From a virus, in IMG/VR virus record IMGVR_UViG_3300017719_000065, positions 1 to 34,999 of that record: DNA of 34,999 nucleotides, one strand, 5' to 3'. The notes under the pieces are model-generated. The model was not told where the DNA came from. It made no database searches and saw only the letters and a list, made by a program, of their open reading frames with translations. The first letter of the stretch is position 1. Every line of letters starts with the position of its first letter. Both the position numbers and the translations under genes were made by a program. Shown one piece after another: positions 650-25,897 of the stretch.

Positions 650-868
650 TTAGAAATTGCCTCCGTTTATAATTGTATTTATATTATCCATTTCAGTGGT
701 CGCTTCCCACTTCGCTGACGTACTGTTATAGAGAATAACTGCTCCGTCTGAATTGCTAGATATGTCAACGTCAAATAGGTCTCCCAACCTAAGTGTGGCT
801 GCGTTAAGCTGATAGTTCGTTACCATAAGATTTTGTGTAGGCGTTAATTTAGCCTTGATGTTTGCCAT
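650..868 (-). CDS. Small structural protein, 72 aa, fibre-associated
   Basis: A 72-residue protein with a good ribosome site (AAGGACTTAAAG before ATG). Its stop codon ends 2 bases from the next start at 649. The middle reads LGDLFDVDISSNSDGAVILY followed by NSTSAKWEATTEMDN, and it ends NTIINGGNF. The pattern 'L.DvdiS...DGavL.Yn..tskWeaT' recurs in fibre and baseplate proteins of T4-like marine phages, both as a free small protein and inside larger ones, so a virion role is likely. No membrane segment or signal peptide is seen. It lies between the 110-aa protein and the truncated fibre, and its 3' end carries the late-promoter box of that fibre gene. Its exact function is unknown. Confidence 0.8.
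   Translation of the reverse strand: MANIKAKLTPTQNLMVTNYQLNAATLRLGDLFDVDISSNSDGAVILYNSTSAKWEATTEMDNINTIINGGNF
676..683 (-). promoter_or_regulatory. T4-type late promoter box for the truncated fibre gene
   Basis: The minus strand reads TATAAATA, the exact T4 late-promoter consensus, inside the 3' end of the 72-aa gene. The fibre ATG follows 26 bases later, with GGAGG in between. The box, the CAA directly after it, and the 26-base spacing match the minus-strand box before the 110-aa gene (1230-1237), which makes chance less likely. No start-site data are available. Confidence 0.65.
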
Positions 869-870: not shown

Positions 871-1203
871 TTAAGTCCTTGTTATTCCAGCTGTTACTGT
901 TGCAGTGCCCTGTACAACTCTAACTTTACTTCCTCCACCAGAAGTAATTTCGATATCGTACAAGTATCTACCAGGTTCCAAAACCTCAGTTACACTACTA
1001 TCCAAGCTAATAGTTATTTGTCCTAAAGCTCCATTATGCGAACAGATAAAATTGGTCGCAGTAGTAGCCGCATAATTTTTTCTCATTTGCGAGGCAACAG
1101 TGTATCCTTGAAGATCAAAAACTGCTCCTGAAGCAGTCTCTACATCAATCAGTGCGGAAAAATCTGTGCCTTGGTCTATTACAATATTTGCTTTAATTGC
1201 CAT
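871..1203 (-). CDS. Small beta-sandwich structural protein, 110 aa (BppU N-domain-like)
   Basis: A 110-residue protein preceded by AGGGAAATAAC and a late-promoter box. It begins MAIKANIVIDQGTDFSALID, continues with GAVFDLQGYTVASQMRKNY, and has a repeating beta pattern through GQITISLDSSVTEVLEPGRY to LYDIEITSGGGSKVRVVQGT. The order 'i.QGtdf...i.l.d..G...dLtGytv..qmRk' followed by 'Y.YDiei...g...rv..G...v..giT' resembles the Ig-like N-terminal domain of phage baseplate upper proteins (BppU type). I infer this from the pattern only. It is the first gene of a short minus-strand cassette with the 72-aa protein and the truncated fibre, and the first gene to the left of the divergent promoter. It probably serves as an adaptor between baseplate or fibre parts. 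Confidence 0.8.
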   Translation of the reverse strand: MAIKANIVIDQGTDFSALIDVETASGAVFDLQGYTVASQMRKNYAATTATNFICSHNGALGQITISLDSSVTEVLEPGRYLYDIEITSGGGSKVRVVQGTATVTAGITRT

Positions 1204-1275: not shown

Positions 1276-3711
1276 ATGACATCAAAATACATCAAGTTCG
1301 GACTTCGTGCCGATAAAAATTTAGCAGACTTGGAAGACTCTAGCCAAGCTTTAGCCAATGTATTAGACGATAACTCTGCGGCATTAGATGAAAACGGTCA
1401 AAAGAGCGGATTCACTGTTGCGGATATTAGTCCTGTAATTGGTTTAAGAAATACTGGACTATCAGACTTCACGAATGAAGATGGTCAATCAAATGATCTC
1501 GCAAGCTTAAATGGCACTGTTGTATCGTTTACTAACACACTAGGACAAGACCAAGTCGTTGAGCCTCTTGTGACTATTCAAGATAATATAAGCAACTTTA
1601 AATCTGTGTTAGGTAATCCTCCTTGGATTAATGGCGGTGACGGACTAAATTGTTTCTTTATCGGTAGCGATAGAATCAATCCTAATCCTACTGGCGCCAT
1701 CACGGGTAATTCAGGTACTGCTTCAACAACAGGTGGCTTGTCATCAAGTCAACTGTGGACATCATATGCAGACGGAGACTTTACTCCAGTTATTGGTCCA
1801 GTGGACTTTTGGAATAACGGAGTCTTCGCCTTCAACGCAAAGCTTCATCCTCAAATGCAAAATACATATGGTCTGGTACAGTGGACCGGATATCTATCAA
1901 GCAACTATGATCAAGATTGGGGCTCTACAGGGTTATTTATCATAGAAGAAGATACGGTGGATGACGGCACAGAAAATAATTGGACTCAGCTTAAATCTGT
2001 TTATGCCACTCCAGATTCTAATGATCAAAACAGAAGTGCCTTTCAGCTAAACAGTTTATCATATACTGGTCCAACAGATGGAGTAGTGACGATAGACTAT
2101 AGCGGATCTTCTATTAATAAAACGTCTATCTGTGCAGGAATGTCATTCGAGTCAAGCGGTTCTCCTTATGAAATTGCAACAGTAGATCCAGTAGCAGAGA
2201 CGGCAACAGTTCAGACATCACAAGCTATAAGTGGACTCACTCAAACATTTAAGTTCAAGCCAGGTCAAGATGAAGTCACAACCCCAATCAAATTTACTGC
2301 TCAGAAAAGAGGTAATAGATTAAGGGTTCGTTATACTCTTTGGTACCCAGATACAGGCAATGGAACTGCTTATAGAGATAAAGGATTCAGAGAGGTTAAT
2401 GATAATAGCGAAAGAGCGCCATACTCCGACTACTATAAAACTTTCGACAGAAATCAAATATTTGGTCCATACACGTACAAGTATTTTGAAGATAATAAAG
2501 CGAGTGCTTTGAATCAGACATCTACGTCTAAATTGACTGTACTCGATACTATATCTCTAATTGTCGATCCTCCAGAACTATTAAGTGATAAAGTTGTAGG
2601 GATATCTGGTAGCAATACTACTGTAACTCCAAAGACGATTACAATACAAGATAGTTTTGGTAAAATATCTGCATCTAACTGGACAGGATGTTCTGTTGGC
2701 GACTGGGTAGTATTTCAGAAGTCAAATAATAACACATATGCTTTTCAACTATTAGAGATTGGTGGAGTTGATGACGATGATAATTATTTTGCTTATGTCA
2801 AAGACACGCTACTTACTGATGCGGGACTAAGTATTGGAGATACAGAAGACGCAATCATATTTAAGAATATTGGACTTATTGGTCTATTCAGACTCGACTC
2901 TGCTGGTAACTCTCAGGGATCACTATATTCATTGCCTCCATATAACATCAATCCTGCAAGTAAAGTGTTTGCAGATCAACTGTTAATGACTATTAAAGCA
3001 GACGGAACTGATGGACTACAAGTCAAAAGACTATTTGATGCGTCCGGAAGTGCTCCTAGAAACATCACGATATCAGATCATTTGAGTAATGGAGGAACAA
3101 ACTTATTTAATGGAAATATTCAGATTGGTGCAGTCTATGCTTCTAGAGGATTAGATGATAAATCTTCTTACTTACAATGTAATGGTGTTTACGGAAGAGA
3201 AGTTGCATCTACTGCGGCTATCGGGCAAAGTCAAATAGCTTTAACTACTACAAATGGAGTTTCGACTGGTGATTACGTACACTTCTATGGTACTGGAAAT
3301 GCTGGCGGTACTGGAGCTATACCTGGATCACCAGATTTTAACAATAATCAAGTTGGTTCAACTACAACAGTATCGAGTATAAGTGGTAACACTATAACAT
3401 TAAGTGCTAATCTAACGGCAGAAATACCAGCGGCACGAACTATAGTTTTTATTAACGGCAGTGACCCCGCAAGCGATAATAAAGAATTCTGTGTGATTCC
3501 TTTAAATACCGCCCCGCCGTTTGAGGGTACAGCCGTTGGTCTTAGAACTCCCTCAGCTAATGCAGATTTACTTGTAGTGGGATTGACTTTTAACAGCCTA
3601 AAGATGCACACGCCTTCGAGTAATGTTCAAGCAATTACGCCTCCAACTAACGCTACACACTATTTTCCTATAGTGTATAATGGTACAACTTATAAAGCTT
3701 TACTCGCTTAA
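1276..3711 (+). CDS. Virion structural protein, fibre-like, 811 aa, on the opposite strand
   Basis: The only convincing plus-strand gene in the window. The ATG follows a weak ribosome site (GGA 7 bases upstream) and a late box 34 bases upstream. It begins MTSKYIKFGLRADKNLADLE and continues with a helical/hydrophilic stretch (SSQALANVLDDNSAALDENG), then PPWINGGDGLNCFFIGSD near residues 115-132. The remainder is Gly/Ser/Thr/Asp-rich beta sequence with aromatic patches, ending FPIVYNGTTYKALLA. The opening 'i.FGLRaDkNLaDL' and the 'NPPWiNGGDGL' phrase are features I recall from large structural proteins of T4-like marine phages. It converges on the 312-aa gene and the two stop codons overlap in TTAA, leaving no room for a terminator between them. 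A virion role is likely; the precise part is not known. Confidence 0.85.
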   Translation: MTSKYIKFGLRADKNLADLEDSSQALANVLDDNSAALDENGQKSGFTVADISPVIGLRNTGLSDFTNEDGQSNDLASLNGTVVSFTNTLGQDQVVEPLVTIQDNISNFKSVLGNPPWINGGDGLNCFFIGSDRINPNPTGAITGNSGTASTTGGLSSSQLWTSYADGDFTPVIGPVDFWNNGVFAFNAKLHPQMQNTYGLVQWTGYLSSNYDQDWGSTGLFIIEEDTVDDGTENNWTQLKSVYATPDSNDQNRSAFQLNSLSYTGPTDGVVTIDYSGSSINKTSICAGMSFESSGSPYEIATVDPVAETATVQTSQAISGLTQTFKFKPGQDEVTTPIKFTAQKRGNRLRVRYTLWYPDTGNGTAYRDKGFREVNDNSERAPYSDYYKTFDRNQIFGPYTYKYFEDNKASALNQTSTSKLTVLDTISLIVDPPELLSDKVVGISGSNTTVTPKTITIQDSFGKISASNWTGCSVGDWVVFQKSNNNTYAFQLLEIGGVDDDDNYFAYVKDTLLTDAGLSIGDTEDAIIFKNIGLIGLFRLDSAGNSQGSLYSLPPYNINPASKVFADQLLMTIKADGTDGLQVKRLFDASGSAPRNITISDHLSNGGTNLFNGNIQIGAVYASRGLDDKSSYLQCNGVYGREVASTAAIGQSQIALTTTNGVSTGDYVHFYGTGNAGGTGAIPGSPDFNNNQVGSTTTVSSISGNTITLSANLTAEIPAARTIVFINGSDPASDNKEFCVIPLNTAPPFEGTAVGLRTPSANADLLVVGLTFNSLKMHTPSSNVQAITPPTNATHYFPIVYNGTTYKALLA

Positions 3712-4646
3712 TTCTTGAGAAGTAAAAAGAAAGTTTCGCCATTAATTGTAATAGGTAACTTAAAGTTGTAAGAGGCTAATGTGTTAGTCTCTGCAACTAA
3801 AAGACTTCCAGGAACTTGAAAGTTTGGAGGATTTCCACTTGATGGATTTAACTTCAAAGTGTTGGGTTGACTATTCGCTTCAGTTGTAGATAAAACTCCG
3901 CTTACCGAATCGTCCCACGGGTTTGATGCGTCACTAAACGCTCTGGTAGAGCCTGCACCAGGATTTGAGGCATCTACGATAAACAATCCAGGAGTAGTGT
4001 CATTCGGTTCTGTACTGACTGTCGCATCATTATCGACAATCATTACAGAACCCCTAAAGCTAACTCTCTGATCAAATGAACTATCTTCAAATGTAAGAGG
4101 CACCCTCTCTCTTTTATAATAGTATAATGCTAGTTGAGAGTTGATATAATCAGACTGTGAGGCAGAAGAGTATTGATTAAATAAATCAGCCGCTCCGTCA
4201 TCAGCACTAACTCCAGTCGATGCCGATGGATTAGTTTCAAGCCTCTTGACACTTAAGTTAGATAAATTTTCCGCTGTGACTGTATCATTACGTCTTAAGT
4301 CTCCAACAGGTGCTACTACTTGACCGAGTGAGTTTCTAATTCTAAACTTATCGATTCCATTTGATGAGTGAACTTCATAAATGAATTCTGTGGGAACATC
4401 TCCAAATGATATCTTTGTGCCGTCAGAGAAAGCAACTTTGCCTTCTCCTGTAACAGTAATCACATCTGCGCTTGAGTCATATGAGTAGTGTGCAGCCTGT
4501 ATCTTAGATATAAATTTTGTATTTCCATCAAACAGAAGTAAGTCTGTAGTAATGTTTGGTCCACCTAAGTTATCAAGAATGCCTCTATCTAGAGTACCAG
4601 TATCACTCTCTATTAAGTTTAAGTCTCTTACAAATCCTTGAGCCAT
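3708..4646 (-). CDS. Virion structural protein, 312 aa
   Basis: Starts after AAGGAAAAGAT, 9 bases past the stop of the LRR gene. The N-terminus MAQGFVRDLNLIESDTGTLD is followed by a section naming ILDNLGGPNITTDLLLFDGN, then beta sequence (VITVTGEGKVAFSDGTKISF), a helical section (DLFNQYSSASQSDYINSQLA) and a C-terminal part with FRGSVMIVDNDATVS, ARNP-like turns (SDASNPWDDSVSGVLSTTEA) and the ending LPITINGETFFLLLKN. I recognise the 'RG.v.IvD' plus 'AFSdaSNPWDd.sG.LsT' plus 'ipi.iNGet.yLLL' arrangement as common in structural proteins of T4-like marine phages, but I cannot name a T4 equivalent. Its C-terminal motif resembles that of the gene facing it on the other strand. Confidence 0.8.
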   Translation of the reverse strand: MAQGFVRDLNLIESDTGTLDRGILDNLGGPNITTDLLLFDGNTKFISKIQAAHYSYDSSADVITVTGEGKVAFSDGTKISFGDVPTEFIYEVHSSNGIDKFRIRNSLGQVVAPVGDLRRNDTVTAENLSNLSVKRLETNPSASTGVSADDGAADLFNQYSSASQSDYINSQLALYYYKRERVPLTFEDSSFDQRVSFRGSVMIVDNDATVSTEPNDTTPGLFIVDASNPGAGSTRAFSDASNPWDDSVSGVLSTTEANSQPNTLKLNPSSGNPPNFQVPGSLLVAETNTLASYNFKLPITINGETFFLLLKN

Positions 4647-4655
4647 ATCTTTTCC

Positions 4656-7127
4656 TTAATCCAGTAGAATAGTCCAGAAACGTTCTAGGAAAGCAAGCTT
4701 GTTTGCCGTACTAGACTCTCCTTCTGTTCCATCGTTAACAATATTTGTTCTACTCAGACCATTGTTACCAAGTAAGTTTACGCTAACTCCGCTTCTAGGA
4801 TTACCCGCATAATTATCGAATAGATCGTTAATCAGAGGTGCACCCACAGATGCCGGTAGTTGATTGTTACTCAAGTCTATGATACTTAAACTTGTATTAT
4901 ACTTGAGTGCGTTTGTTGTATATCCATCTATAGAGTTACTGTTAAGATACAATCTTTGAAGTCTTACAGCTCCACTCATACTAGGCAGATTGCCACTTAA
5001 GTTATTGTTCTGAAGATACAAATAATACAGATACGGAGTATTCAGCGCAGGTAGAGATCCACTAAGCTGATTGTTATAACAGAACACGTATCTCAGTGCA
5101 TTAGTTGACCAAGTAGGAACAGTACCAGTCATAGCATTACTATCAAGTCTCAAGTAATATAAGTTTTGATTTGAAACTAAGTTGGGTAAATTACCGCTAG
5201 TGTTAGTGTTTCGAATATATATTCCACGCATGTTAGTACAATTAGAAAAGTCTGGCAAATCTCCTGCAATGTTTCCATTACTATAAACATAAAGCCATTG
5301 AAGACTTGACATGTTAGAAAAGACTTCTCCATTATTACCATTAACTTGCGAAGCAGCCGTACCATAAAAATCGCTATCGTTATGACCAGAGCCTGCAAAT
5401 CTAATATGCTGAAGTGCGTCTGCTCCAGTAAAGCTATTGTCTTCTAATCCGCCTGACACTGAAGTCCATCTCAAATCTAAAACTCGTAGAGAACTTAAAG
5501 ATTGATTTGCAAATGCAATGCCAATATCCGCTTGTATTGTACTTGATGCATAAAAATATAATTGGTCTAGTGCTGTACACCCAGTAAATTGTCCAGCTAG
5601 ATTTCTGGGCTTACTGCTATCTGGACTAGAGTAAGCCTGAATGTAATTGGTCAGTAAGGTCTTAGAACTCATATTCACTACGTTATGAGCATTACCGTAT
5701 GATATAAACTCACCTATGCTAGAACTTGCGATAGAGATTGGCTGAGTGCCGCCTGATCTATTTTCAGCAGTACTAATTGAGCACCACGGGAAATATAGAT
5801 ATGTCAAGTTTGGACTAGCGCATACTCCAGCATCCAACTGACTATAGGGTTGATTATATATTCTATATTGACTTATGCCCTTCACTTTAGGATTAGCAGA
5901 ATCTATAACAGTCTTTGGAGATATTGTACCTCCAGTCATGCGTCTTTGTGCATTTCGACTATAATATGTCTGAAACTGTAAAAACTGTAGATTATCATAA
6001 TCAGTTAAATCTATTGTAGTGCTATCAGAGAATACTCCGTTCATCGTTAAGTGAGTCAATGTGGTAGGAAGAGTGTTTAACTGAGCGTTTGCGGGAAGTT
6101 GATTTCCACTCGCATCTTCTGCCCTCGACATATCATTCGCACTAATTGTTATCTTTTTAAGATCGACTGCAAGTTCATCACCACCTCTACTTGAAGGACC
6201 AAACTTAGGTAACTCATAAAAGTCATTATTGTTAATATCAATTCGTTGAATATTATCTAAGCCGACATTTGTCCACTCGGTTAAGTTACATCCAGGAAGA
6301 CGTAACTCTCTAATTTTTAAAGGATTATAAAAGAACTCAATCTTACGTGCTTTTGATGAACTATCTCTAAATGCGTAAGTTGCTGGAGAATCAACTGTAC
6401 CTGCTCCAATAGATCCAGTAGCATCACCAGTATTATAAGATTGCCCTCCAGCTTTGTTTGTTATTCTCCAAACTGGCGGTACAATTCCAGCTGAATCGCT
6501 AACAGAATCAACTGCATGTGACAAGTCTACATTTCTAAAAAAGCCTTCCCATTCTAAAGGAATTCCTTTCATTGCTAGAAACTCTTTAGCTGTGCCATTA
6601 ACACTAATTAGAAGCTTGTGTGTCGCAACTTCAGCCCTAAATGTTTTTGGAATTGGAGCAGTACTTGTTCCTAGTGAACTGAATGTTACATTGTCTCCTG
6701 TTACTTCAACTTCTCCTCCATATAAAATAGAAGAACCTATTGAAGACCAAGATGAAACTCTTGACGTTGATATGTCTGCTGTTTTGATACTGTTATTGGA
6801 ATAATCCAGATAGTTGTATTTGATTGCTGCCGCATTAATCTGGTTATCAATCTCTAAGTTGAAATCTAATGGTTGTCCAATATCCTTCAAGCTAGTGAGA
6901 AGACCTCCAACTGTAGTTGACGATCTAGCAAGAGAAGCTAATTCCTTTTTTTGATCTACAACTAGTCCAGATACTGTGTGTAATTCGTTTGCCTCAACGC
7001 TTGCATTAGATGCTAACCCAGATATGAGCGCCAAGTCCCTCTGGTCTAAGCCCAAGTTAATGAGAGACTGTGCCGCATTATCGACATCATTCATTGCTAA
7101 TTGTACGTTTAGACCTCGAAATGGCAT
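4656..7127 (-). CDS. Leucine-rich-repeat virion protein, 823 aa
   Basis: Start ATG overlaps the stop of the preceding gene (TAATG) and has GAAGGAA upstream. Residues 1-80 are helical (RGLNVQLAMNDVDNAAQSLI, then a SGL...VSGL stretch). Residues 85-200 are a beta domain (QPLDFNLEIDNQINAAAIKY; IKTADISTSRVSSWSSI; GIPLEWEGFFRN). From about 270 there are irregular leucine-rich repeats, and from 607 to 760 seven clear repeats of 22-24 residues with the pattern xxLxxLYLxxNxLSGxLPxxs, for example YLYYLYLQNNNLSGNLPSMS. This is close to the plant-type or bacterial 'LxGxiP' repeat and forms a curved solenoid that normally binds protein or glycan ligands. There is no signal peptide, sorting signal or kinase part. 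The N-terminal part and the neighbouring genes point to a virion protein, probably a tail-fibre or receptor-binding component. I believe related marine T4-like phages carry similar proteins, but the function is not established. Confidence 0.85.
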   Translation of the reverse strand: MPFRGLNVQLAMNDVDNAAQSLINLGLDQRDLALISGLASNASVEANELHTVSGLVVDQKKELASLARSSTTVGGLLTSLKDIGQPLDFNLEIDNQINAAAIKYNYLDYSNNSIKTADISTSRVSSWSSIGSSILYGGEVEVTGDNVTFSSLGTSTAPIPKTFRAEVATHKLLISVNGTAKEFLAMKGIPLEWEGFFRNVDLSHAVDSVSDSAGIVPPVWRITNKAGGQSYNTGDATGSIGAGTVDSPATYAFRDSSSKARKIEFFYNPLKIRELRLPGCNLTEWTNVGLDNIQRIDINNNDFYELPKFGPSSRGGDELAVDLKKITISANDMSRAEDASGNQLPANAQLNTLPTTLTHLTMNGVFSDSTTIDLTDYDNLQFLQFQTYYSRNAQRRMTGGTISPKTVIDSANPKVKGISQYRIYNQPYSQLDAGVCASPNLTYLYFPWCSISTAENRSGGTQPISIASSSIGEFISYGNAHNVVNMSSKTLLTNYIQAYSSPDSSKPRNLAGQFTGCTALDQLYFYASSTIQADIGIAFANQSLSSLRVLDLRWTSVSGGLEDNSFTGADALQHIRFAGSGHNDSDFYGTAASQVNGNNGEVFSNMSSLQWLYVYSNGNIAGDLPDFSNCTNMRGIYIRNTNTSGNLPNLVSNQNLYYLRLDSNAMTGTVPTWSTNALRYVFCYNNQLSGSLPALNTPYLYYLYLQNNNLSGNLPSMSGAVRLQRLYLNSNSIDGYTTNALKYNTSLSIIDLSNNQLPASVGAPLINDLFDNYAGNPRSGVSVNLLGNNGLSRTNIVNDGTEGESSTANKLAFLERFWTILLD
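4848..5309 (-). repeat. Seven leucine-rich repeats coded in the 823-aa protein
   Basis: Residues 607-760 hold seven repeats of 22-24 residues, with the first conserved hydrophobic position at L609, M633, L656, L678, L700, L723 and L747. The core is LxxLxLxxNxLxGxLP, with the LSG(S/N)LP step best kept in repeats 4 and 5. The DNA copies have diverged strongly, so this is an old repeat array rather than a recent tandem expansion. Confidence 0.85.
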
Positions 7128-10100
7128 TACTGTTCCTTCACTGTGAGAGTTACTTCTACATTACCAACAGATGTACCGTCTACTGCTGATCCTGTAAGGT
7201 ATATTGCTTTATTATTTAGCAGTCCTCTCGCTAATCCCTTTCTGTCTCTGTTGAAGATATTTGACAAGTCAAACTTTTCTGGAACTCCTCCTTGGAGGAA
7301 CAGAGAATATATTTTGATGCCAGGTCTTAATGGATTCAAACATTGATCGTCAAATCTAACACTTGACAATCTATCTATGCTTTGAAATGCCGCAGGTGAA
7401 AGAATATCACTTGAAGTGCCCGACCCAACGATACTTAAATTAGGAGCTTCATCTCCCTTAATAAACTTAGGAGTATGAGTTCTAACACTATCTGGTGTAA
7501 ACTCTTCGACTATAATATTATTTACTTTAGCATTATCTTTTAATGCTACGACTAAGTAGAGTGGCTGAGCATTAAACTTTACTGCCTTTGATCTAGTAAA
7601 ATTGTCTCCGTTTAAATCAGGATCAAGTTGCCAGTCATGTGTAATTGATACTGTCTTTGTCTGAATAGCAGTCACGGTTCTGTTGCCACTATCAGTAGGA
7701 TCTCCATCAACATATGCAAAGTAGCTTCCGTTCGAATCTAACACTGGAACTGTCGTGTAGTATATACCTAGTCCTACGCTTCCCACGCCTATCTCTGTAC
7801 TCTGGGCTATTACATTATTTGAACCATCGAGCGTAAATAATTCTTCGGCTGGAGCACCACCAGTAAATGTAATCTTCCATTGACCATTAAAGTTTCCTGT
7901 GCCGGCATCAATCGAACTTACAGGATAATCTACTACTCTAACTTCTCCTTTTACAGCCGATACGTACCCACTGTCATCACCTGATGGACGTGGAATTCTG
8001 TTATCGACCATAAACATATCCGAGTATCCTGGATCCCACTCATATCTATCAGCTTTAGTTGTATATTCAATTGCCGCACCCTCTGAAGAATACTCTTGGA
8101 ATAATTCATCGTATAAAGAATACTGTGCCCTAGATCCGTCATCCGCTTCAAACTTTAATTTGTTATTATCGGTAGAGTCCACATATGGCTCTTTTGAAGT
8201 AACTGATATAGCAAAGTCTGCGAAATGTTTGCCACCATCTCTTGCACTAGGATTTAAAAAGTGTACTTTAAAGTTATTACTGTATATAGGAACTGTCGAT
8301 GCTGTAATAGTATGGTAGTTGGAAAGTCTACCAGTAAATTGTGTTCCTGATACACTAGCATCTATGACTGTTCCGTCTGCCTTAAGTCCCTTAGCGATAC
8401 TATCTATCACTAGAGTTTGCGAACCATTTCTTCGTCTAATGTTAGTAGATTGATGATCATTTGTAAAGTCATAATCAACATACGCATTGTAGATTCCGTC
8501 TGCGATTATATGAGCATTGTCATCTTCAACATTTAGAGCATCTCCGTTTAAAATATCTAGTTGATTGCCTCCTGTACCTACAAACCCAAACGTCAATGTT
8601 CTAGATAAGGCATGCACTCCATTGTGTAGAGAAGTTGAAAAGTTATAATGTACTCCATCTGGAGAGCCATTGATCTCTTCAATATCTATTCTCATATCAA
8701 TATCACTTGATATAGACATGGTAGAGGGATAAGCTTTCTTGAAGTTGGTTAATCCTTCTCCGTCTGAATTGAAAATCTTTTGTTTAGGAAGAATGCCCAA
8801 TAAGGGAGTTCTTGGTTTATCTACCTGTTTACTATCAACTGTCGTAGTTACAAGTCTAATAGTGCCCTCGTCTCCGCCATCGACATAGTAACTACTACCG
8901 TACTTGTATAATGCTACAGGCTTTTTCATCGTAGCATTGTCTTCGGTGTAAACTAGATACTTAAATTTAAAATCAGGATTTTTGAGAATAGGTTTGCCAA
9001 GACCGTTTTCGATTACAAGTCTATGAATTAATACCCAACGTGCATCGCCGTTACCAGAGGGAACGTATGCGTAGAATTTAGCGCCAATTGCACCATACCA
9101 AGAAAATTCAATCTTGTACATCGTAACATCTTCAAACGATAGAATATATCCAGATGGTCCATTTCCGAGTAAACTGTCTCCGTTAAACTTAGTACGTGGT
9201 ATTACAGTTTCCCACATTGCTTCTCGTACAGTTGTGCCTTTAGGTTCAATGGGAGTAGCTGATTGATCAGTTGGATCAAGTCCTTGTCTAAGTAATAGGG
9301 CGTCTGGTAATTTGATAACACTTCTACGAACAATGTTAAATCTAGATCCAACTAGTTGAAACATATATTCGTCTGTGTCGTTTGAGCATCCCCACTCAAT
9401 CGTATTTACGTTTGATGCTGGATCAGTTTCTTGTCTTACACCAAATGTAAATCCACTTGCTCGACCAGGCTGATATCTAAATGTCTTCTTACTTTCAAGA
9501 ATCGCAAACTTGGTTGCACTTGAACTGCCGCCAGGCTGTGCTTTACTTGACAAAAACGATCTGATAAATGGATAGATAGGATCTAAAGTGAAGTCTGGTT
9601 CGGGTTGACCCGTAAGAGTTGGAAATGACGCATCGCCAGAAACTATACGATCAAACAATACTGTCCATCTTTCAATTTGATCAAATGCTCCTTGAAGATC
9701 GCTACCGTATTCAACATCAAAGAATGTGTTATCTCCAGAAAAGAACAGACCATTAGTATTAAAGGTAGAAGTAGACGTTACATCTATTTCTGCTTCACCA
9801 CTACTGACGATTTTAATATCAGTGTTTAAAAAGTTTCTTTCAGCAAATACACGATTGTAGGGTAAGAATATCGTGTAAAGATATTTGCCCATAGCAATGA
9901 AGTTCATGAATCTTTTTAAGCTGTCAGATGCTTCACTTTGCCTATTCGCAATCGTACTGCCAGGAAAGTTGTACTGACTAGGATAAGTCGATATGACTAA
10001 TGCTTGCTCTGTGCTTTCTTCATAGAATTTGGGATTGAATCTTCTTCCAAAAATAGGATTCTCTTTACTATACCATTCTGGAGGATAGACTGCATTTGAA

Positions 10101-10456
10101 AATGTATAATAATTCCAGTTCTCTTCATCTAGTCCGTAAGTAGAAACATCTGCAAAAAGACTTAGTTGTTCTTCAGCACGAGGTACTCCAAGAATGGAGC
10201 TACTTACTTCTGACTCACTTGAAAACTGTTCTTCAACAGGAACAGTTACTACAGGACTATTATTGTAGTTATTTGAAAATATCGATGTAGCGGAATCAGA
10301 CCTAGCAAAGGATCCTAGTACCGCTTCATCTTCAGTAACCACAGGATTACCAGCCGCATCGTACAGAAGGTTACCTTCAATGTCGATAAGCTGTGTAAAC
10401 TGCTTCGTAACTGGAGCAGGTACTTTATCCAGTCCAAGTTTGATCTGCTTTGGCAT
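7127..10456 (-). CDS. Large virion structural protein, 1109 aa, paralogue of the upstream gene
   Basis: It lies 3 bases after the stop of the 1382-aa gene and its own stop overlaps the start of the LRR gene. It begins MPKQIKLGLDKVPAPVTKQF. Four blocks match the 1382-aa protein in the same order: VEEQ...SILGVPRAEEQLSLFADVSTY (about 74-107), KTFRYQPGRASGFTFGV (324-340), VTMYKIEFSWYGAIGAKFYA (444-463) with YVPSGNGDARWVLIHRL, and YKYGSSYYVDGGDEGTIRL (517-535). Between the first two blocks it has its own insertion (about 125-310, PEWYSKENPIFGRRFNP and KRFMNFIAMGKYLYTIFLPY). The C-terminal half (about 560-1109) is beta-rich and ends VEVTLTVKEQ. These blocks are familiar to me from very large structural proteins in marine T4-like phages. 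A role in the tail-fibre network or baseplate periphery is inferred; no catalytic motif is seen. Confidence 0.85.
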   Translation of the reverse strand: MPKQIKLGLDKVPAPVTKQFTQLIDIEGNLLYDAAGNPVVTEDEAVLGSFARSDSATSIFSNNYNNSPVVTVPVEEQFSSESEVSSSILGVPRAEEQLSLFADVSTYGLDEENWNYYTFSNAVYPPEWYSKENPIFGRRFNPKFYEESTEQALVISTYPSQYNFPGSTIANRQSEASDSLKRFMNFIAMGKYLYTIFLPYNRVFAERNFLNTDIKIVSSGEAEIDVTSTSTFNTNGLFFSGDNTFFDVEYGSDLQGAFDQIERWTVLFDRIVSGDASFPTLTGQPEPDFTLDPIYPFIRSFLSSKAQPGGSSSATKFAILESKKTFRYQPGRASGFTFGVRQETDPASNVNTIEWGCSNDTDEYMFQLVGSRFNIVRRSVIKLPDALLLRQGLDPTDQSATPIEPKGTTVREAMWETVIPRTKFNGDSLLGNGPSGYILSFEDVTMYKIEFSWYGAIGAKFYAYVPSGNGDARWVLIHRLVIENGLGKPILKNPDFKFKYLVYTEDNATMKKPVALYKYGSSYYVDGGDEGTIRLVTTTVDSKQVDKPRTPLLGILPKQKIFNSDGEGLTNFKKAYPSTMSISSDIDMRIDIEEINGSPDGVHYNFSTSLHNGVHALSRTLTFGFVGTGGNQLDILNGDALNVEDDNAHIIADGIYNAYVDYDFTNDHQSTNIRRRNGSQTLVIDSIAKGLKADGTVIDASVSGTQFTGRLSNYHTITASTVPIYSNNFKVHFLNPSARDGGKHFADFAISVTSKEPYVDSTDNNKLKFEADDGSRAQYSLYDELFQEYSSEGAAIEYTTKADRYEWDPGYSDMFMVDNRIPRPSGDDSGYVSAVKGEVRVVDYPVSSIDAGTGNFNGQWKITFTGGAPAEELFTLDGSNNVIAQSTEIGVGSVGLGIYYTTVPVLDSNGSYFAYVDGDPTDSGNRTVTAIQTKTVSITHDWQLDPDLNGDNFTRSKAVKFNAQPLYLVVALKDNAKVNNIIVEEFTPDSVRTHTPKFIKGDEAPNLSIVGSGTSSDILSPAAFQSIDRLSSVRFDDQCLNPLRPGIKIYSLFLQGGVPEKFDLSNIFNRDRKGLARGLLNNKAIYLTGSAVDGTSVGNVEVTLTVKEQ

Positions 10457-10459
10457 GAG

Positions 10460-13400
10460 TTACTGTTCTTCCCATGTGCAACCTAAGCTTACTTGGATTG
10501 GCGATACTCCTGAATCGTTGTCAGAGTCTACTGCAAAATAAAGACTATCTGCTTGGTCCGTCAGTGGGAACGATAGATATTCTTTATTGTAATCAAAGTA
10601 AGGACTTAAGTCGAGTTGTTCTGTTCCCGGCTGTAAGTATATAGTCGCTACGTTAATACCAGTATTTGGAATTGGTACTATCGTATCGTTTGCAATCTTA
10701 ATTGAACTTAATCCCTCTTTCTCTGAAGTTACTTTAGTTACTGTTGTTTGTGCTATGTCATCTCCGTCTGCTTCAAATCTCAAATCAGGTAAGAATGAAT
10801 CAGCTTTTAACTGAATTACTCCGTTAAATGATTCTAAGAGTTCGAAGTAGTACTCATCACTTTCTTTGTAAAGTCTGCCGAATACTGTTACTTCGTCTGC
10901 ATCAACAAGTGCTTGGAACCAACCGAATACGCTTTCGTTATTATCGATATATGTTCCAGCTCCTCCACTTTCAGTCACTCCGACTGTGCTTAATGGCTCA
11001 TTCAATGCGGTCAACGTATAAGGAGCATCTAAAGTAAATGTTCCGGTAAACACTGTGTCCGTCTGGAATATAGGAGTCTTCTTAAATCTCATGCGAACAG
11101 GCTTTGCGTCTACGCCACTAGATAGGTTCGATGAAGAAAGTTTTGTAGGATAAACCTGAACTCTATTACGAACAGCATTTGACTGTTGAGTACTCAAGAT
11201 AATCTTCTTGGTTTCTAGATTATATGTTGCATTTGCTCTGTCAACTAAAAGACTCATGTTAGTTGGATTAGTGGATGGAACACCATCTAGATAAACCTTA
11301 TTCGCATCTGCCCAAACTACTTTAATATTTTGATCAGTTCTGTTTGCACTCTTAAATCTAGCTCCCATAAAGAATCTAGGATCTACGCTAGTATTTGCGT
11401 TACCGCTAAGAGACGATGCGCTGATAGTGATAGTGTTGTCTGCTGAATTATAGTTTCCGTTAGCGATAGTCCAAACTTTACCATAAGCATCTTGAGTAAG
11501 TTCATTGTTGTGACTATACAGTCTTACTGTACCTCTGTCGCCACCATCGATGTAGTAAGAAGCACCGTATTTGACAATAGAGTGAGATTGAGATCCGTAT
11601 CCTCTATCAACAAAGTTAGCATCTTCTCCATCACCTAAAGAAAGTTCATCACCACCACCGTATGTCGTATACGTAATAGGAAGTGTCGCATTACCCAAAG
11701 AAGCATTCTTGTATTGGTTAGAAGCACGTAAGTGGTGTACTCTTACCCATCTTGCTTCTCCATTCTCTACTGGAACATATGCTAAGAACAATGCACCAAC
11801 AGCACCATACCATGAGAATTCAATCTTAAGCATAGTAACTTTTGTAAAGTCAAAGTTATATAAGCTACTCATTGATTGGGTTACGCCGTCAATAGTATAA
11901 ACTTGACCAGGTCTTGCTGTACCACTTTCTCCTGTAGCAACGTCACTATAGACTCTTTGTTTTGCTGGTGGATTTGTGAGATCAGTTCTTCCATCTAACG
12001 TGTCATGACTGAATCTTGATCTAGGCACACGATAATCATACACTCCCCAAAACTCTGGCTTAACGTTGAATCTTACCCATGTAACAAAGTTAGGATCAAA
12101 GTTAACGTAATCGATCTGGTCACATACAGTGTTAAGACCATCTGCTGTAGAAATGTCTAGTGCTGTGTTAACATATCCAACACGTAAACTTGCTGATGCG
12201 TCTGTGCTATTGAGATTGTTATCGCTTGCATACATGTACGGGAATACCATTCCACCTGGGAAAGTATCTGTCGATCCATCTGCGGGAATATTATGTGCGT
12301 CTCTATAGTTTGTTGGTTCATATCCATGATATCCAACTCCAACAGATCCTACATAAGTATTAGTTCCTGTTAGATCCTGCTTGAGTTTACTAGTACCAAT
12401 CGCAAGAGTAGTACCCTTTTTAGGGAAGATGAACGGAACAACTGTTTCTACTTTGAAATCGGCAGGAACATCTACTGCGTCAAAGACCTGTGCAATACCA
12501 TCTTCATCTTCTAACGTAAACTCGTTACCTTTTGGTCCAATCACATTAACGACTTTGTATACTTTTCCTGCTTCAAGTCCTGTGCCTCCAGTTCTCGCAG
12601 GAGTTGGCGCAGGAACAGCAGTTTTAACTTTGACGTGACCTTTAAATTGGACTACGCCTTTAGTTAGTTTAAGTTGATCATCAGTATCAGAGACTGCCAC
12701 AATCTGTTCGATATCTTTGAGTAGCTTTGGATCATAAACAGCAGAGTGTGTTAAGATGATTCCGTCTCGCATTGCAACCAAGTTACCAGCAAATCCATTG
12801 TCGCCAACATCCATTTGCTGAGTGTCTTCAATTGAGAAGTTATTGATAACTCTCGTTGCAAGTGCATCGAGTTTGATATACTGTGAAGTAGATGAACTAT
12901 ATCCAAAGTAAGATGCAAAGTCTGCTAAGATTGTATCTTTTAGGTGAGTGTGTCGATCAATCTCTGCTTGTACTGGATTACCTACAATGTTGCCATTGCC
13001 ATCATATTCAGCTTGAGAGTAGATAGACATACCAAAACCTGCGCTTGCAGATGCTGGTCTACCACCTTTGAAGTACATAGACATGTTGTACTTTGTTTCT
13101 CCGTCACCGCCGCCTGCGATGTCGTTTCCGTATCCGCCCACAATATATCCAATATCTCTTTGACACTTATACTTAAGTTCTTCTACTGTATATGGATATC
13201 CAGATGGAAATTCATATGTTGCGGCTGAGTCGGCAGTACCTGTTCCTGAACCAGCACCGGTGGCTGTAAACGTACTTCCTACAGCAGCCGTTCCACTTAA
13301 ACCAATTGCATTCCAATTTGTGCCATTGCCTAAACTAGAGATTTTATATACTGTGCCAGTTACAAAACTACCAGCAGTAGTATCTCCGTTTCTAGCAGTT

Positions 13401-14608
13401 ACGTGATATGCCCAATAGTGTGATTTAGTTGCAAAGATGGTATCAATCTTACTTCTGTTACCGTAGTCGCTATCGCTGATAGTTGGAACTAATACAGACT
13501 GTCCATTATTTCTATTGAAAGCAGTATTCGTAATTCCAGTCAGTGTAGTGAGTTTCGATATACCAGCTGATGAAAGACCCGCATATGTTGTTAATGCAGT
13601 TCCTAATGCAATGTGAGTTGGCTTCTCATAAGTAGCAATCGCAGGAAGTATAGCAGTTGCGTAGTTAGTGATGTTAATCTTAGTATGGTTTGTACCACCA
13701 TGCTCCATATCTAGTAGATAGAAGTCTACCCAGTAATCCAAATCTCTTGCACACTTCTCTTTTACAGAAGCCGCAGTCTCAGATCCTCCGATTGCTGCCG
13801 CTAAGTCTGCGTAGAAAGTACCCGTGTCTAGTCCGTTAACAACTCCATCGATAATAGCAAATCTATTATTCGTAATAAGTTCACGATCTTTCACTAACAG
13901 TGTACTAGGAACAGCCGCTTCACTTGCGCCTTGTCCAATGATTCTATAGTCATCAAACTGACTTCTAGAAATGGTACCTGCTGGTGCACCACCTTTAAGT
14001 GATTGTCCTACAACACCAGTTGGAGAGTTGGGAGCTTTTGTAAGTGACTGTGAACGTCTGACAACAGAGAAGTTATCTTCTTGCGAGTCATCTCTAGTTT
14101 CCCAAAAATATCCATCAAAGTTATCATAGATACCAAACTTTCTAATTGATGGGTTCTGAGAGAATGTGCTTTGTCCGAGTGTTGACTTAACACCAAACGT
14201 TGCGGCTGATACACGACCAGGCTGATATCTGAAGAAACGCTTCGATGTTAAAACTGCTGTCTTATTTCTAGGTGCTTCTACGAGCGCACCAGCTTCCGTA
14301 GGTAAGTGTTGAATGCCGTGTCCAGTGATATGATACTGTGGAGAAGATGACCACTCACTTGGATTAACATCATATGTGTTAACGTCTGCGAAGATACCTA
14401 AAGCAACTTCGGCACGTGGAATACCCAAGAGAGAAAGTGCGACTTCTGATTGTACTTTGTTTTGCTCTTCAACTGGAATAGCAGTCTGATCTGAGGCGAT
14501 TACAACAGGAATCGATTTCGAAGCGGGCTGAACACCAGGAGAAACGGGCGTAGTACGACCTACGTTTACTACACTAGCGTTATTATTTACATTTGTTATA
14601 CTTGACAT
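10460..14608 (-). CDS. Very large virion structural protein, 1382 aa
   Basis: The start has GGAAGGATAA upstream and lies 1 base from the stop of the beta-helix gene. N-terminus: MSSITNVNNNASVVNVGRTT, then SIPVVIASDQTAIPVEEQ, a common phage structural opening. Blocks shared with the 1109-aa protein lie at 46-79 (VEEQ...LLGIPRAEVALGIFADVNTY), 123-140 (RFFRYQPGRVSAATFGV), 923-943 (VTMLKIEFSWYGAVGALFLA) and 1012-1030 (VKYGASYYIDGGDRGTVRL). Between the second and third blocks sits about 600 extra residues, holding two copies of a 'C.RDidYiv' motif (C286 and C482), a short Gly/Thr-rich module (417-460) and a 'HTHLKDTILADFASYFGY' section. The C-terminus is beta-rich and ends CTWEEQ. No enzyme motif is recognised. 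It probably belongs to the tail periphery or fibres. Confidence 0.85.
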   Translation of the reverse strand: MSSITNVNNNASVVNVGRTTPVSPGVQPASKSIPVVIASDQTAIPVEEQNKVQSEVALSLLGIPRAEVALGIFADVNTYDVNPSEWSSSPQYHITGHGIQHLPTEAGALVEAPRNKTAVLTSKRFFRYQPGRVSAATFGVKSTLGQSTFSQNPSIRKFGIYDNFDGYFWETRDDSQEDNFSVVRRSQSLTKAPNSPTGVVGQSLKGGAPAGTISRSQFDDYRIIGQGASEAAVPSTLLVKDRELITNNRFAIIDGVVNGLDTGTFYADLAAAIGGSETAASVKEKCARDLDYWVDFYLLDMEHGGTNHTKINITNYATAILPAIATYEKPTHIALGTALTTYAGLSSAGISKLTTLTGITNTAFNRNNGQSVLVPTISDSDYGNRSKIDTIFATKSHYWAYHVTARNGDTTAGSFVTGTVYKISSLGNGTNWNAIGLSGTAAVGSTFTATGAGSGTGTADSAATYEFPSGYPYTVEELKYKCQRDIGYIVGGYGNDIAGGGDGETKYNMSMYFKGGRPASASAGFGMSIYSQAEYDGNGNIVGNPVQAEIDRHTHLKDTILADFASYFGYSSSTSQYIKLDALATRVINNFSIEDTQQMDVGDNGFAGNLVAMRDGIILTHSAVYDPKLLKDIEQIVAVSDTDDQLKLTKGVVQFKGHVKVKTAVPAPTPARTGGTGLEAGKVYKVVNVIGPKGNEFTLEDEDGIAQVFDAVDVPADFKVETVVPFIFPKKGTTLAIGTSKLKQDLTGTNTYVGSVGVGYHGYEPTNYRDAHNIPADGSTDTFPGGMVFPYMYASDNNLNSTDASASLRVGYVNTALDISTADGLNTVCDQIDYVNFDPNFVTWVRFNVKPEFWGVYDYRVPRSRFSHDTLDGRTDLTNPPAKQRVYSDVATGESGTARPGQVYTIDGVTQSMSSLYNFDFTKVTMLKIEFSWYGAVGALFLAYVPVENGEARWVRVHHLRASNQYKNASLGNATLPITYTTYGGGDELSLGDGEDANFVDRGYGSQSHSIVKYGASYYIDGGDRGTVRLYSHNNELTQDAYGKVWTIANGNYNSADNTITISASSLSGNANTSVDPRFFMGARFKSANRTDQNIKVVWADANKVYLDGVPSTNPTNMSLLVDRANATYNLETKKIILSTQQSNAVRNRVQVYPTKLSSSNLSSGVDAKPVRMRFKKTPIFQTDTVFTGTFTLDAPYTLTALNEPLSTVGVTESGGAGTYIDNNESVFGWFQALVDADEVTVFGRLYKESDEYYFELLESFNGVIQLKADSFLPDLRFEADGDDIAQTTVTKVTSEKEGLSSIKIANDTIVPIPNTGINVATIYLQPGTEQLDLSPYFDYNKEYLSFPLTDQADSLYFAVDSDNDSGVSPIQVSLGCTWEEQ
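13229..13360 (-). repeat. Short Gly/Thr module, copy in the 1382-aa protein
   Basis: Residues 417-460 read TGTVYKISSLGNGTNWNAIG, then a VGSTFTATGAGSGTGTA ending. The same pattern, 'Y.I..lGtt.w...G...n.VG..FtAt..g.GtGTa', occurs in the 978-aa and 927-aa proteins of this window. Here it sits inside the large insertion that distinguishes this protein from its 1109-aa paralogue. Confidence 0.7.
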
Positions 14609-17583: not shown

Positions 17584-17591
17584 TATTTATA
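17584..17591 (-). promoter_or_regulatory. T4-type late promoter box before the beta-helix gene
   Basis: The minus strand reads TATAAATA in the 55-base gap between the 553-aa and 978-aa genes. The start codon follows 37 bases later, after AAAGGCAAC. It is an exact match to the T4 late consensus in one of the few real gaps of this cluster. It may start a second late transcript covering 17546 down to 3708. Confidence 0.7.
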
Positions 17592-19263: not shown

Positions 19264-20505
19264 CTACTTGTCCTTCTTAAGTTCGTCTATCTCTGCCTTG
19301 AGTTCTTTGATTGATTCGATTAGCAGACCTACGATATTACCATGACGAACTGCTTTGCTTTGTGTGCCATCAGGCGACTCTGTTTCATACACCACTTCAG
19401 GCAAAACTTCTTCTAACTCTTGTGCAATAACACCAGTCATAGGCGTTCCATCGCCGATATAGTTAAACGTATATCCAGAAATCTGTGCCACTTTCTCTAG
19501 AGCATTGTCGATCTTAACTATATTCTCTTTACGATTTCGATCAGATACGCTACCAAATGCTGTGATGTCGCCTTCTGTTACTAGTGAGCCACTGGTACCA
19601 TTAATAGATAGCTTAGAGTCTAGACCATTATTAATATACATAGACTTACCGTCTAAGTTTATAATCATAGAGTTGACATCATTTACTGATCCATCTTGGA
19701 GTCCGATAGAAAATATTCTACTACCAGTTGCAAAGTCGCCATATCTAACAGTAGCATATCCATCTGTATTAGAATTCTGATTGCCAAAATATATATTTTC
19801 GCCTTCTGCTATTTGAACATCGCCACTAAATGCGGCTCCTGTCAGCGGAGCAAACCCGTTTAAAGTCGTAGTTAAATTAGTAATGTTTGCAACGGTATGA
19901 TTATGACTATTATCAGCTACAATTAATTCAACATCAGAAATATCAGCCGAGCCATCAATAGAGAAGTTACCCGTAACATCACCAGTAGCAAAAGTTACTG
20001 TGCGAGAGGCTGCCCAAGCTGTTGCTGTTCCGGCATTACCAGTTGTGTCTGCCGTAAGAGATGCGGGCATCATTGCATTATCGATTGTCCAAGTGCTACT
20101 AGTTATAGTGTTTGCGTCTGAATCAAAACGGACGTATTCACTACCTAAAGCAATATCTAAATCAGTATGATCAGCAGACGTTTCAATTTTCCAAGTAGGA
20201 GTGTTAGCTGATTGAAACTCAATTTTGCCTGCACCAGTAGTCTTATCTAAAATAAGATTGCCTTCGACTCCCAAATTAGAATTGACTGTAATAGTATTAC
20301 TGGAATTAGAATCAGTTTCTTGAAGTGTATCAATATACAGTGTACCGCTAGAAGTAATATCGCCAGTAATCACAACATTGCCACTATTCGTTTCACTGTC
20401 ACCTATAGTAACAACTGATCCGATAACGTCAATGATGTCATTGGTCCTAGTCTTCCAGACTCCAAAAGTATTCTGATTAGTAATCTGTGATAGTGTTCTA
20501 CTCAT
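19264..20505 (-). CDS. Tail fibre with C-terminal intramolecular chaperone (S74 type), 413 aa
   Basis: Residues 40-320 are fibre repeats with beta motifs such as NVVITGDITSSGTLYIDTL and TADTTGNAGTATAWAASRTV, plus an HNH sequence at 201-203 (an HxH pattern that in some phage fibres binds metal). From 321 the sequence SDRNRKENIVKI starts the peptidase S74 domain of endosialidase-type chaperones. Ser321 and Lys326 have the spacing of the known Ser-Lys self-cleavage pair. It continues with YTFNYIGDGTPMTGVIAQEL and VLPEVV to about 390, then a coiled coil (LIESIKELKAEIDELKKDK). In this family the C-terminal domain assembles the trimer and then cuts itself off, so the mature fibre would end near residue 320. 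It overlaps the 61-aa gene by 8 bases. No clear Shine-Dalgarno, so coupling to the upstream gene is likely. Confidence 0.9.
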   Translation of the reverse strand: MSRTLSQITNQNTFGVWKTRTNDIIDVIGSVVTIGDSETNSGNVVITGDITSSGTLYIDTLQETDSNSSNTITVNSNLGVEGNLILDKTTGAGKIEFQSANTPTWKIETSADHTDLDIALGSEYVRFDSDANTITSSTWTIDNAMMPASLTADTTGNAGTATAWAASRTVTFATGDVTGNFSIDGSADISDVELIVADNSHNHTVANITNLTTTLNGFAPLTGAAFSGDVQIAEGENIYFGNQNSNTDGYATVRYGDFATGSRIFSIGLQDGSVNDVNSMIINLDGKSMYINNGLDSKLSINGTSGSLVTEGDITAFGSVSDRNRKENIVKIDNALEKVAQISGYTFNYIGDGTPMTGVIAQELEEVLPEVVYETESPDGTQSKAVRHGNIVGLLIESIKELKAEIDELKKDK

Positions 20506-20683
20506 TGTTTATCTCTTTACATGTTTGTTGTAGAGAAGTGATTACTTCTTCTAACTTATTTATTCTAAGTTCCAAAGACTGAATTTTCTTAGTCTGTTCG
20601 ATTCTTGCTTTAGCGGACTTGAATGCAGACACATCTGTATTTACAACTCCCACATCTTTTCTTATATATCCTTCAGTCATCAT
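20498..20683 (-). CDS. Small coiled-coil protein, 61 aa
   Basis: The start overlaps the stop of the 1733-aa gene (ATGA) and the end overlaps the S74 fibre start by 8 bases. A second ATG follows at once (MMTEGY), so either may be used. The first half reads EGYIRKDVGVVNTDVSAFKS, and the second half forms a clear heptad pattern (KIQSLELRINKLEEVITSLQ). The tight overlap on both sides, the coiled coil and the position among virion genes support a real gene. The 'VvNtd...f..ak.r' opening plus coiled coil recalls small proteins found in other T4-like phages, but this is memory only. Possible roles are fibre trimerisation, a fibre-assembly helper or a minor virion part. Confidence 0.75.
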   Translation of the reverse strand: MMTEGYIRKDVGVVNTDVSAFKSAKARIEQTKKIQSLELRINKLEEVITSLQQTCKEINNE

Positions 20684-23600
20684 GTCAGTGCTATCGCTCT
20701 GTAGTCATAAATGTGTGGAAATATATGTTCTGCTGGAGTTACATTCAAATCTTTATCATTGATCTCACTTGATGTAGCATGTCTCATCTCAAACTTAAGT
20801 TGGAATGAACTATAGTCATTTGTTTCGTCTGCTAAATCATATTGAAACTCTCTATAGTCAAGAGTGTTTGATAGATTAGAATACATGTCTTCATCAGAGT
20901 TTACTAATTTTATCCAATCACTTTGAGTTTCTATATCTGTAGGATACACAAATCTTGCATATACATCAATATAAGCGCCTGCTGGTCTGAATCCGCTTAA
21001 GTAAACACGAAGTCCAGTTGCGTCCAATTGTTCTTGCAGAGTAATCTCTTTTGATACCCAGCTTGATGTTGCGACACTTGAAGCTGAAATTTTATACTTG
21101 TATGCATTCAGAATAGACAGTGCTGGATCTACAATAGGAGTTGAAGATTGGTATCCATTATTTGTCATAGCGACTCTAATCTTAAAGTCATTGCTTTCAG
21201 TCAAACCTGGATTAACAATATTCGAAGTACTGTTAACTACTCTAAGAGTGCCTGTACTGTAAACATTTCCGTTTAAAGGTATACTCTTATCTACAGCAGA
21301 ACCTTTATATAAAGTAAAGTCAGTAGAAGTTCTCATACTGTTACTTACAAAAATTTGAGGCTGAAAATACGAAATAGGTTCGTTGTCTATAGTAGATATA
21401 GTTGTGGTTGCACCAGTTCTATATCCATTAACTACTTCACCTGCTACTAAGAAGTTACCTTCTTTAGCCGAACTTTCTTTTAAGAATAGTCTATCTGCCT
21501 TTCTCTTGTTGAAGTACGAGACTCTTCCAGCTACAGTAAGGAAAGCAGTTGCGCTATTAGTTGTACCGCTATATGGAGCACGGATAGTTAAGATAGATGC
21601 AGTATCGTTTACAGCAACAATCTCACTTAAGAAATTATCATTGTTATCTACGATTAAGACATAATCTCCCACAGCAAAAATACTTCCGCCGCTAATAGTT
21701 ACTGTTCTATCACTTACTCCACATGGCTTACTATAAGATTTCTTAATGTATGCCAACTCGTCATTTTTGAAATTCAAAGTCGTATCTGTTACAGATAAAA
21801 ATTCTACATCATTAGGACTTAAATCAACAGATCCTGCAGTGGCTTGATGCTGATATCTTTTCAATGTAAACTTAATGTCTTCATCTTGATATGACTTCCA
21901 AGCACTATCGTTAGTCGAAGTGAAAAGAACACCGTCACCCCAATCATTCGTAATCGATGTGCCAGTTGCCAAATCAGCATTACCCACTTTAGATGTGAAT
22001 ATTAAAAAGTCTGGTGAGTTAGCGTCAGGAATAACAACAAAGCAGTATTCCTTGTTAACGTTCAGTTTAACTGGATTCTTAAATTGGAATGTCGTAGCAG
22101 TTGTTCCAGCATCAGAAGTATTAATTTGACTAGCACGTAAATGCTTTCTGCCAAAAGGTAAAACTGCTTGAGATGGATATCCATTTACAACTTCTCTCAA
22201 CTCAAGTGTAGCACCAACAGTGGCAGATTTTGATTTAAAGTAAACATCTACACTACTAATCATAGACATGCTTGCGCCTTCTGCTTGAGCAGGTCTAACG
22301 ATAAACGTTTGTGCAATGGGATCAACTCTCCACTGTCGTGTAAACGATCTAGTGGTTACGTTTCGCTCTACATCAAACGTGGGTGTACGAGTAGTCTGAG
22401 TTAGTTCAGATTTACCCACATCAAAATTATATGCTCTATACACAGCTTTAGTGTAAGAAGTCTTACCACTTTCTAAACTAGAATACTGATCAATGTCAAC
22501 AATTTCGATTGCTCTTTCTCCCACAAAGAAAGTTGCTTCCGGTATATCAAATACGGCAGCAAGTGTGCCCTCTGCGTCAGTACGAACAGCAGATCCTTTA
22601 GCCGATCCATTGTCTTCTACTTCACTGACATTATATTCTGTTGCGCTACCTATAACAGTTGGATTGACATCGCCAGGATAAATATGTGAGTCGATTGAAG
22701 CGCCGTCTAAGAAGAAGTAGTGTCGAGTGTTAGGTCTAAGACCAGTAACTAGAATCTTAACTTCTCTAGACTGAATGTATGGAGACATCGTAACATCGGT
22801 TACAAAGTTTCCTACACTACTAGTAGTGACATTATTATCTCCTACTGTAAGACTATCAGTAGTTGTAGTTACCGTAGTTGTTTGGCTACGGTTGTTACCG
22901 TTTCTTTGAACAGCTCCAGAAATACTACTTACCTGTTCTCTTGTTAAAGGAATAACTTCTTGAAGGTTATCGATCAAATCTAAAAGAGGAGTAGCAATAT
23001 CTACTTCTAAGTTGATAGCAGGATTCTCAATGACATCATAGCCAGCATCAAAAGGAGGATCGATTGACGCCTTACCTGCATAGTTATAAAAGTTAGATAC
23101 ACAGTTTCTAAAGTTTGTTGCGAATGGCTGTTCGATTACATTAACACGTGTTCCAGTGTCTGCCAAAGTAACAACGTCCTGATATACGTTTGCGCCCGTG
23201 CTTGAGTCAACTTTAAGATCGATAGGAAACTGAGTCACTGAAGGTGTTGCAACAGTCCTAGACTTATCAATGGCAGCTCCAAAATCTGGATCTTCTACTG
23301 CGCCTACACGTAAATCCCTAAACGCATCTACAAGAATGCCGTTCTTAAATCTGTTAGTGCCAGACCCATTAGGAATAAACATATCTTTAGTACTTGACTC
23401 AAGTAAACTCATTGAAACTGCATCAGTAAGTCTATCGATTTTCTTTTCGATGCCTGATATATCTTTCATCGTGTAGTTTTTATTTGAAACATCTACAACA
23501 CGAATTGGATTGTTTCCCGTAACTTTAGTCACGTTACCAGGAACATAAACATTACTCAATGCATACATTCCAGGAATTTCTGGAATACTTGGACTCTCAG

Positions 23601-25881: not shown

Positions 25882-25897
25882 GTATTATACTCTTTTC

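Follow-up and report, generated by a model that had tools for sequence, protein, structure and literature searches.

The window analysed here, a 34,999-nucleotide stretch of DNA (positions 1 to 34,999 of the IMG/VR virus record IMGVR_UViG_3300017719_000065), carries genes for the baseplate wedge proteins gp25, gp6 and gp8, followed by a VrlC/phrog_358 gene, a tail fibre gene and a module built around a gene for a leucine-rich repeat (LRR) protein (Table 1). The presence of the tail fibre gene in the same cluster agrees with the initial annotation, which had placed the LRR gene in a fibre cluster. The VrlC-like product shares 31% identity with VrlC of phages phiM7 and phiN3 over its full length, and in relatives the neck genes, read as gp13/gp14-like by comparison with phiN3, come after the module. 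In every family locus examined whose contig reaches far enough, the gene order is the same: two phrog_1645 genes, the LRR gene, the MAQGFV gene, and then a gene on the opposite strand. Relatives of the tandem phrog_1645 paralogs also occur in Synechococcus phage S-CBS4, in the gp44 region after the tail genes. Searches of the window for RNA families, tRNAs and tandem DNA repeats gave nothing.

Table 1. Features of the LRR module, its surroundings and divergent family members. Coordinates are those of the window, except in the last row, where they are those of the contigs named.
Feature	Coordinates	Strand	Basis
Divergent module gene, 811 aa, related N-terminal adapter (putative)	1276..3711	+	syntenic with S-TIM5 gp116
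Downstream module gene, 312 aa, MAQGFV family	3708..4646	-	in all family loci examined; syntenic with S-TIM5 gp117
LRR gene, likely virion protein	4656..7127	-	open ORF, 823 aa; Pfam, AlphaFold2, S-TIM5 gp118 as ortholog
C-terminal cap, residues 771-823	4659..4817	-	NPRxGVSVNLLGN...W(T/S)ILL conserved in family alignment
Plant-type LRR part, residues 607-770, seven units	4818..5309	-	units, PDB matches, aromatic concave face
Irregular LRR part, residues 263-606	5310..6341	-	LxxLxLxxN cores; AlphaFold2 strands
Beta-rich N-terminal domain, residues ~100-265	6333..6830	-	AlphaFold2 strands; family motif
Putative N-terminal adapter, residues 5-57	6957..7115	-	hhalign to 1276-3711 product, prob 88, E 3.1e-6
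Upstream virion protein (phrog_1645, E 1.7e-33)	7127..10456	-	stop codon overlaps LRR start codon
Paralogous virion protein (phrog_1645, E 1.5e-24)	10460..14608	-	N-terminal hhalign 99.9 to 7127-10456 product
Tail fibre protein, LRR gene cluster	19264..20505	-	phrog_11011 E 4.3e-35; other tail-fibre PHROGs
VrlC-like/phrog_358 large structural protein	20680..25881	-	phrog_358 E 2e-245; precedes fibre slot
Baseplate wedge gp6	30560..32326	-	phrog_219 E 2e-137; phiN3 39%
Divergent long members, 1472-1549 aa	L021:7992-12410; L024:4816-9387; L047:7992-12641		Lcl_C/DUF1566-like insert

The LRR gene and the phrog_1645 gene preceding it are probably translationally coupled, because the LRR start codon overlaps the preceding stop codon at a junction, AAGGAACARTA immediately before ATG, that is kept in nearly all of the family. 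A late-promoter-like site, TATAAATA, lies on the minus strand at 17584-17591, close upstream of the first gene of the run (14610-17546), and may be a weak candidate for a late promoter; the window holds five copies, a number not above chance. Two copies stand back to back on both strands at 1230-1241, between the divergent genes 871-1203 (minus strand) and 1276-3711 (plus strand), again with a count not above chance. The last codons (KEQ) of the 7127-10456 gene supply an AAGGA ribosome-binding site for the LRR gene.

The protein carries tandem LxxLxLxxN repeats within the 20-30-residue range that defines the LRR superfamily, and belongs there. The initial annotation had described seven plant-type repeats at residues 607-760, with more irregular leucine-rich units from about residue 270, and both observations stand. 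The plant-type part comprises seven units of 22-24 residues between residues 609 and 769 (starts at 609, 633, 656, 678, 700, 723 and 747, thus spaced by 22-24 residues), while irregular LxxLxLxxN cores start at 272, 293, 323, 441, 520, 547 and 572; two weaker units near 357 and 380, recognized by eye, bring the irregular total to about nine. On a simple 16-position plant-type LRR score, with units counted at a score of at least 7, the whole protein has eight units, whereas 2000 composition shuffles average 0.84 and never exceed 5; residues 601-765 have six, and 5000 shuffles average 0.35 there with at most 3. A chance origin is thereby ruled out. Pfam matches to LRR_4 (E 1.2e-13), LRR_8 (6.8e-9) and LRR_1 (2.3e-5) all exceed their gathering scores. 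Units of the plant-specific LRR class are 24 residues long and have xLxGxIP following the N position; here, five of the seven 22-24-residue units contain an (I/T/M/L)xGx(L/V)P-like segment in which L or V replaces I. LRR_5 gave no Pfam match in this protein up to E 1, and PHROGs offered no usable family (best phrog_6688, E 0.055). By inspection the N-terminus lacks a hydrophobic, signal-like stretch, leaving no evident export signal, as originally noted.

An AlphaFold2 model, built with 16 family members, has a mean pLDDT of 76.6, with residues 607-770 at about 86-96 and residues 1-130 poorly predicted. It places one short strand in each plant-type unit, at residues 611, 635, 658, 680, 702, 725 and 749, and it securely predicts a curved LRR solenoid with one parallel strand per unit. 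With the irregular part included, the solenoid comprises about 16 units, the last seven of them plant-type. The curved solenoid that the initial annotation had expected of residues 270-770 is thus what structure prediction returns. A phmmer search of the PDB ranks plant LRR receptor kinases best (AT5G25930 at E 4.8e-31, then MIK2, BRI1 and PEPR1), and Foldseek likewise retrieves plant LRR ectodomains for the model, including BRI1, RGFR1, PEPR1 and similar structures at E 5e-12; these matches are to the predicted fold class rather than the whole shape, because global TM-scores are low (0.2-0.36). Toward the C-terminus the model adds helices at 759-775, 793-797 and 807-817, plus strands.

Ahead of the solenoid lie two further regions. 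Residues 5-57, with helices predicted at 8-12, 18-24, 29-41 and 46-52 (pLDDT below 50), align with the product of the divergent module gene and are probably a docking element shared by the two proteins. Model confidence is low over residues 1-130, which weakens the structural case for docking through this adapter, and a fold search from the N-terminal model alone was dropped, the model being too weak (pLDDT 54). The beta-rich domain is better modelled (pLDDT about 60-93 from residue 160) and contains a motif, IKYNYLD...ADISTSRVSSW, that is kept across the LRR family. The virion-like character first ascribed to the N-terminal part of the protein is supported.

Relatives in cultured phages could be reached by one route only. 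Tblastn with this protein, and with the family member on contig L019, gave no match among 50,697 phage records; the neighbouring phrog_1645 protein, for its part, led the search to cyanophages S-TIM5 and S-TIM54. Both have the five module genes in the same order and orientation as the window, and in S-TIM5 the gene in the LRR position encodes gp118 (YP_007006107.1; UniProt H6WFW9), with counterparts in S-TIM54, S-TIM61 and S-TIM66, all Synechococcus phages of the genus Aurunvirus. Pairwise comparison of the two proteins is weak (BLASTP E 0.02, and no significant tblastn match), and it was profile comparison that settled homology: hhalign of the family against gp118 gives 99.4% at E 1.2e-21 over 289 columns, covering the N-terminal domain and first repeats. 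Moreover, gp118 is the second-ranked match to our model in a Foldseek viral library (E 4.9e-11, TMq 0.54). Gene order, profile-profile alignment and Foldseek together make a strong case that the two are orthologs. The gp118-type proteins are longer, at 1193-1217 aa (1193 in S-TIM5), and their repeats are more degenerate and interrupted; gp118 nevertheless has Pfam matches of its own to LRR_1 and LRR_4, although LRRs are absent from its record annotation.

That record describes gp118 as 'virion structural protein and packaging', and because the ortholog is so annotated, our protein is likely a virion component as well. The annotation probably derives from the S-TIM5 proteomics of Sabehi et al. 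in 2012. Proteins identified in S-TIM5 virions are also mentioned in a later paper (PMC10665884). The suggestion in the initial annotation that related marine T4-like phages have similar proteins is supported by gp118. None of the literature that we searched reports that cyanophages have an LRR protein in their virions.

The family also extends to uncultured phages. Short peptide patterns from the protein and its alignments, applied to viral and genome contigs, identified members on 22 IMG/VR contigs, some of them near-duplicates, and on one contig of a metagenome-assembled genome (MAG). They range from 819 to 1549 aa, and 15 of the 16 scanned match LRR_8 at E 0.01 or better; two members other than ours match LRR_5 (best E 2.3e-4). 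The MAG contig (NHEZ01000047.1) bears a close relative (81%) in an assembly labelled Cellulomonadaceae bacterium TMED98, and is probably mis-binned phage DNA; it was left out of host assignment for that reason. A check of 14 related records, many of them fragments, for the cyanophage auxiliary metabolic gene psbA was negative.

Divergent members have domains inserted within the solenoid. Those on contigs L021 to L024 and L047 contain an Lcl_C/DUF1566-like segment (E 6e-7 to 2e-5, below the Pfam cut-off), and at least L021 and L024 also have a cupredoxin-like segment inside the solenoid, with a Cys-x4-His-x4-Met pattern of type 1 copper sites recognized by eye and weak PDB matches (E 0.004). 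The sequences YQCSAHPDM and YRCQNHSSM in these segments of L021 and L024 are a possible type 1 copper site. Matches of L024 to Pseudomonas phages by tblastn were confined to the inserted domain and were set aside. Diversity-generating retroelements often have DUF1566 domains in their variable proteins (PMC4159848).

The concave face of the plant-type repeats has a composition of its own. Across the seven units, aromatic residues fill 13 of 35 concave positions but only 5 of the 126 others (p 1.3e-6), and each of the eight sequences compared keeps 11-13 concave aromatics. Receptor-binding tips usually diversify, and the initial annotation had proposed looking for fast change at concave residues among close relatives. 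The data contradict that expectation and point to strong purifying selection on this surface. The concave face is 97% identical in both nearest relatives, whereas the convex face is 84% and 73% identical; over the eight sequences, variability is 0.34 on the concave and 0.48 on the convex side (permutation p 0.022), the concave value being that of the repeat core. For residues 607-770 the two nearest pairs give dN/dS values of 0.16 and 0.05, although dS is close to saturation in the latter pair. Diversification of the concave face is rejected on identity, permutation and dN/dS alike, nor are residues 607-770 consistently less conserved than the rest of the protein, as diversification of the distal part would have it. 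No other exposed surface of the plant-type LRRs is as conserved as the concave face, which speaks against both a decoy and a receptor-binding face in rapid diversification. A fixed ligand would be expected to select just such a conserved, aromatic concave face, and the ligand may be either a molecule on the host surface or a second protein of the virion.

By a small margin over even chances, we favour a tail-associated attachment protein whose predicted solenoid would bind a conserved ligand. In this proposal, it would be a late-expressed virion protein of the tail or baseplate attachment module of a T4-superfamily marine myophage. The helical adapter of residues 5-57, which the divergent neighbour carries too, would dock the protein to the particle; the beta-rich domain would follow, and then the long solenoid, displayed outwards, whose aromatic concave face would hold the ligand during adsorption. 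That ligand would most likely be a conserved host cell-surface glycan or protein. A host ligand is favoured on account of the genome slot, the size variation of the family and the binding-type domains inserted in its divergent members. The LRR gene combines a host-recognition slot with a putative N-terminal attachment domain, the adapter, as expected of a receptor-binding protein, and a receptor-binding role is plausible; against a role at the tip itself, the separate, dedicated tail fibre encoded at 19264-20505 could be the tip.

The main competitor is a conserved contact between virion proteins, in which the solenoid would act as a structural connector: its concave face would bind another virion protein, a phrog_1645 product or the 312-aa neighbour being candidates, and within the fibre module it would act as scaffold or collar without itself touching the cell. 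Not only is the module inherited as a unit in every locus examined, but nearly all of the family preserves the probable translational coupling to the phrog_1645 gene, and the concave face is conserved as much as the repeat core, all of which would suit a connector. Lengths of 819-1549 aa and whole domains inserted into the solenoid would, however, be unusual for an internal connector, and ligand sites, too, typically have concave surfaces rich in aromatic residues; we regard the connector as unlikely, though worth keeping in view. Less probable still is an accessory adhesin for particles or extracellular polysaccharide, which would concentrate the phage near its hosts much as Ig-like capsid decorations might, and would not be a specific receptor-binding protein. 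A widespread ligand would fit the conserved aromatic surface and low dN/dS, and the separate tail fibre leaves room for such a part, but the gene sits in the baseplate-neck slot and has no capsid link. A decoy or effector, using a plant-receptor-like LRR to act on host or eukaryotic surface signalling, is highly improbable: the sequence does resemble plant receptor kinases, but no signal peptide is seen, the ortholog is annotated as virion, the adapter is common to another module gene, and the PDB matches extend across every repeat of numerous plant proteins, which a repeat consensus would lead one to expect.

Most phage tips described so far are trimeric fibres, beta-helices, or lectin- or Ig-like folds, and LRRs are familiar chiefly from the receptors of plants and animals. 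To our knowledge, an LRR solenoid has not been described as a receptor-binding architecture in phages; its presence in an adsorption module of cultured cyanophages and uncultured marine myophages would widen the phage attachment repertoire. Beyond the attachment protein favoured above, we tentatively suggest, without holding it likely, that in a widespread group of marine T4-superfamily phages such a solenoid, with its conserved aromatic concave face, would provide host recognition on a near-invariant ligand, with lineages gaining specificity from inserted lectin-like or cupredoxin-like domains. A concave face that is conserved rather than diversified leads one to expect a target that is hard for hosts to alter, and, with S-TIM5 in culture, what gp118 binds is directly testable.

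Several known systems offer instructive parallels. Plant LRR receptor kinases, such as AT5G25930, MIK2, BRI1, PEPR1 and FLS2, share the LxxLxLxxNxLxGxxP repeats and a solenoid with a second short strand, but their signal peptide, N-terminal cap domain, transmembrane segment and kinase are absent here; an LRRNT_2 cap, transmembrane segment and kinase gave no Pfam match up to E 1. The protein accordingly falls outside that family, and convergence is the simplest reading of a likeness that lies in the repeat consensus. In plant BRI1 a ligand-contacting domain is set into the run of LRRs; the divergent phage members likewise have domains inserted into the solenoid, with no common origin implied. 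BspA-type LRR_5 proteins and the mimivirus-like LRR proteins of BFVD share the solenoid fold, but occur in other contexts and without a virion attachment domain. The Sinorhizobium phage phiN3 (Emdodecavirus) provides the closest parallel for the slot, between VrlC/baseplate wedge and neck genes, which in phiN3 is occupied by a single tail fibre and a single assembly protein, with no LRR gene annotated. As the baseplate backbone of the window (20680-34981) is nearest to phiN3 and phiM12 among cultured phages, at 31-39%, but the attachment module (1276-14608) is held in common with Aurunvirus, that module has probably been exchanged as a unit.
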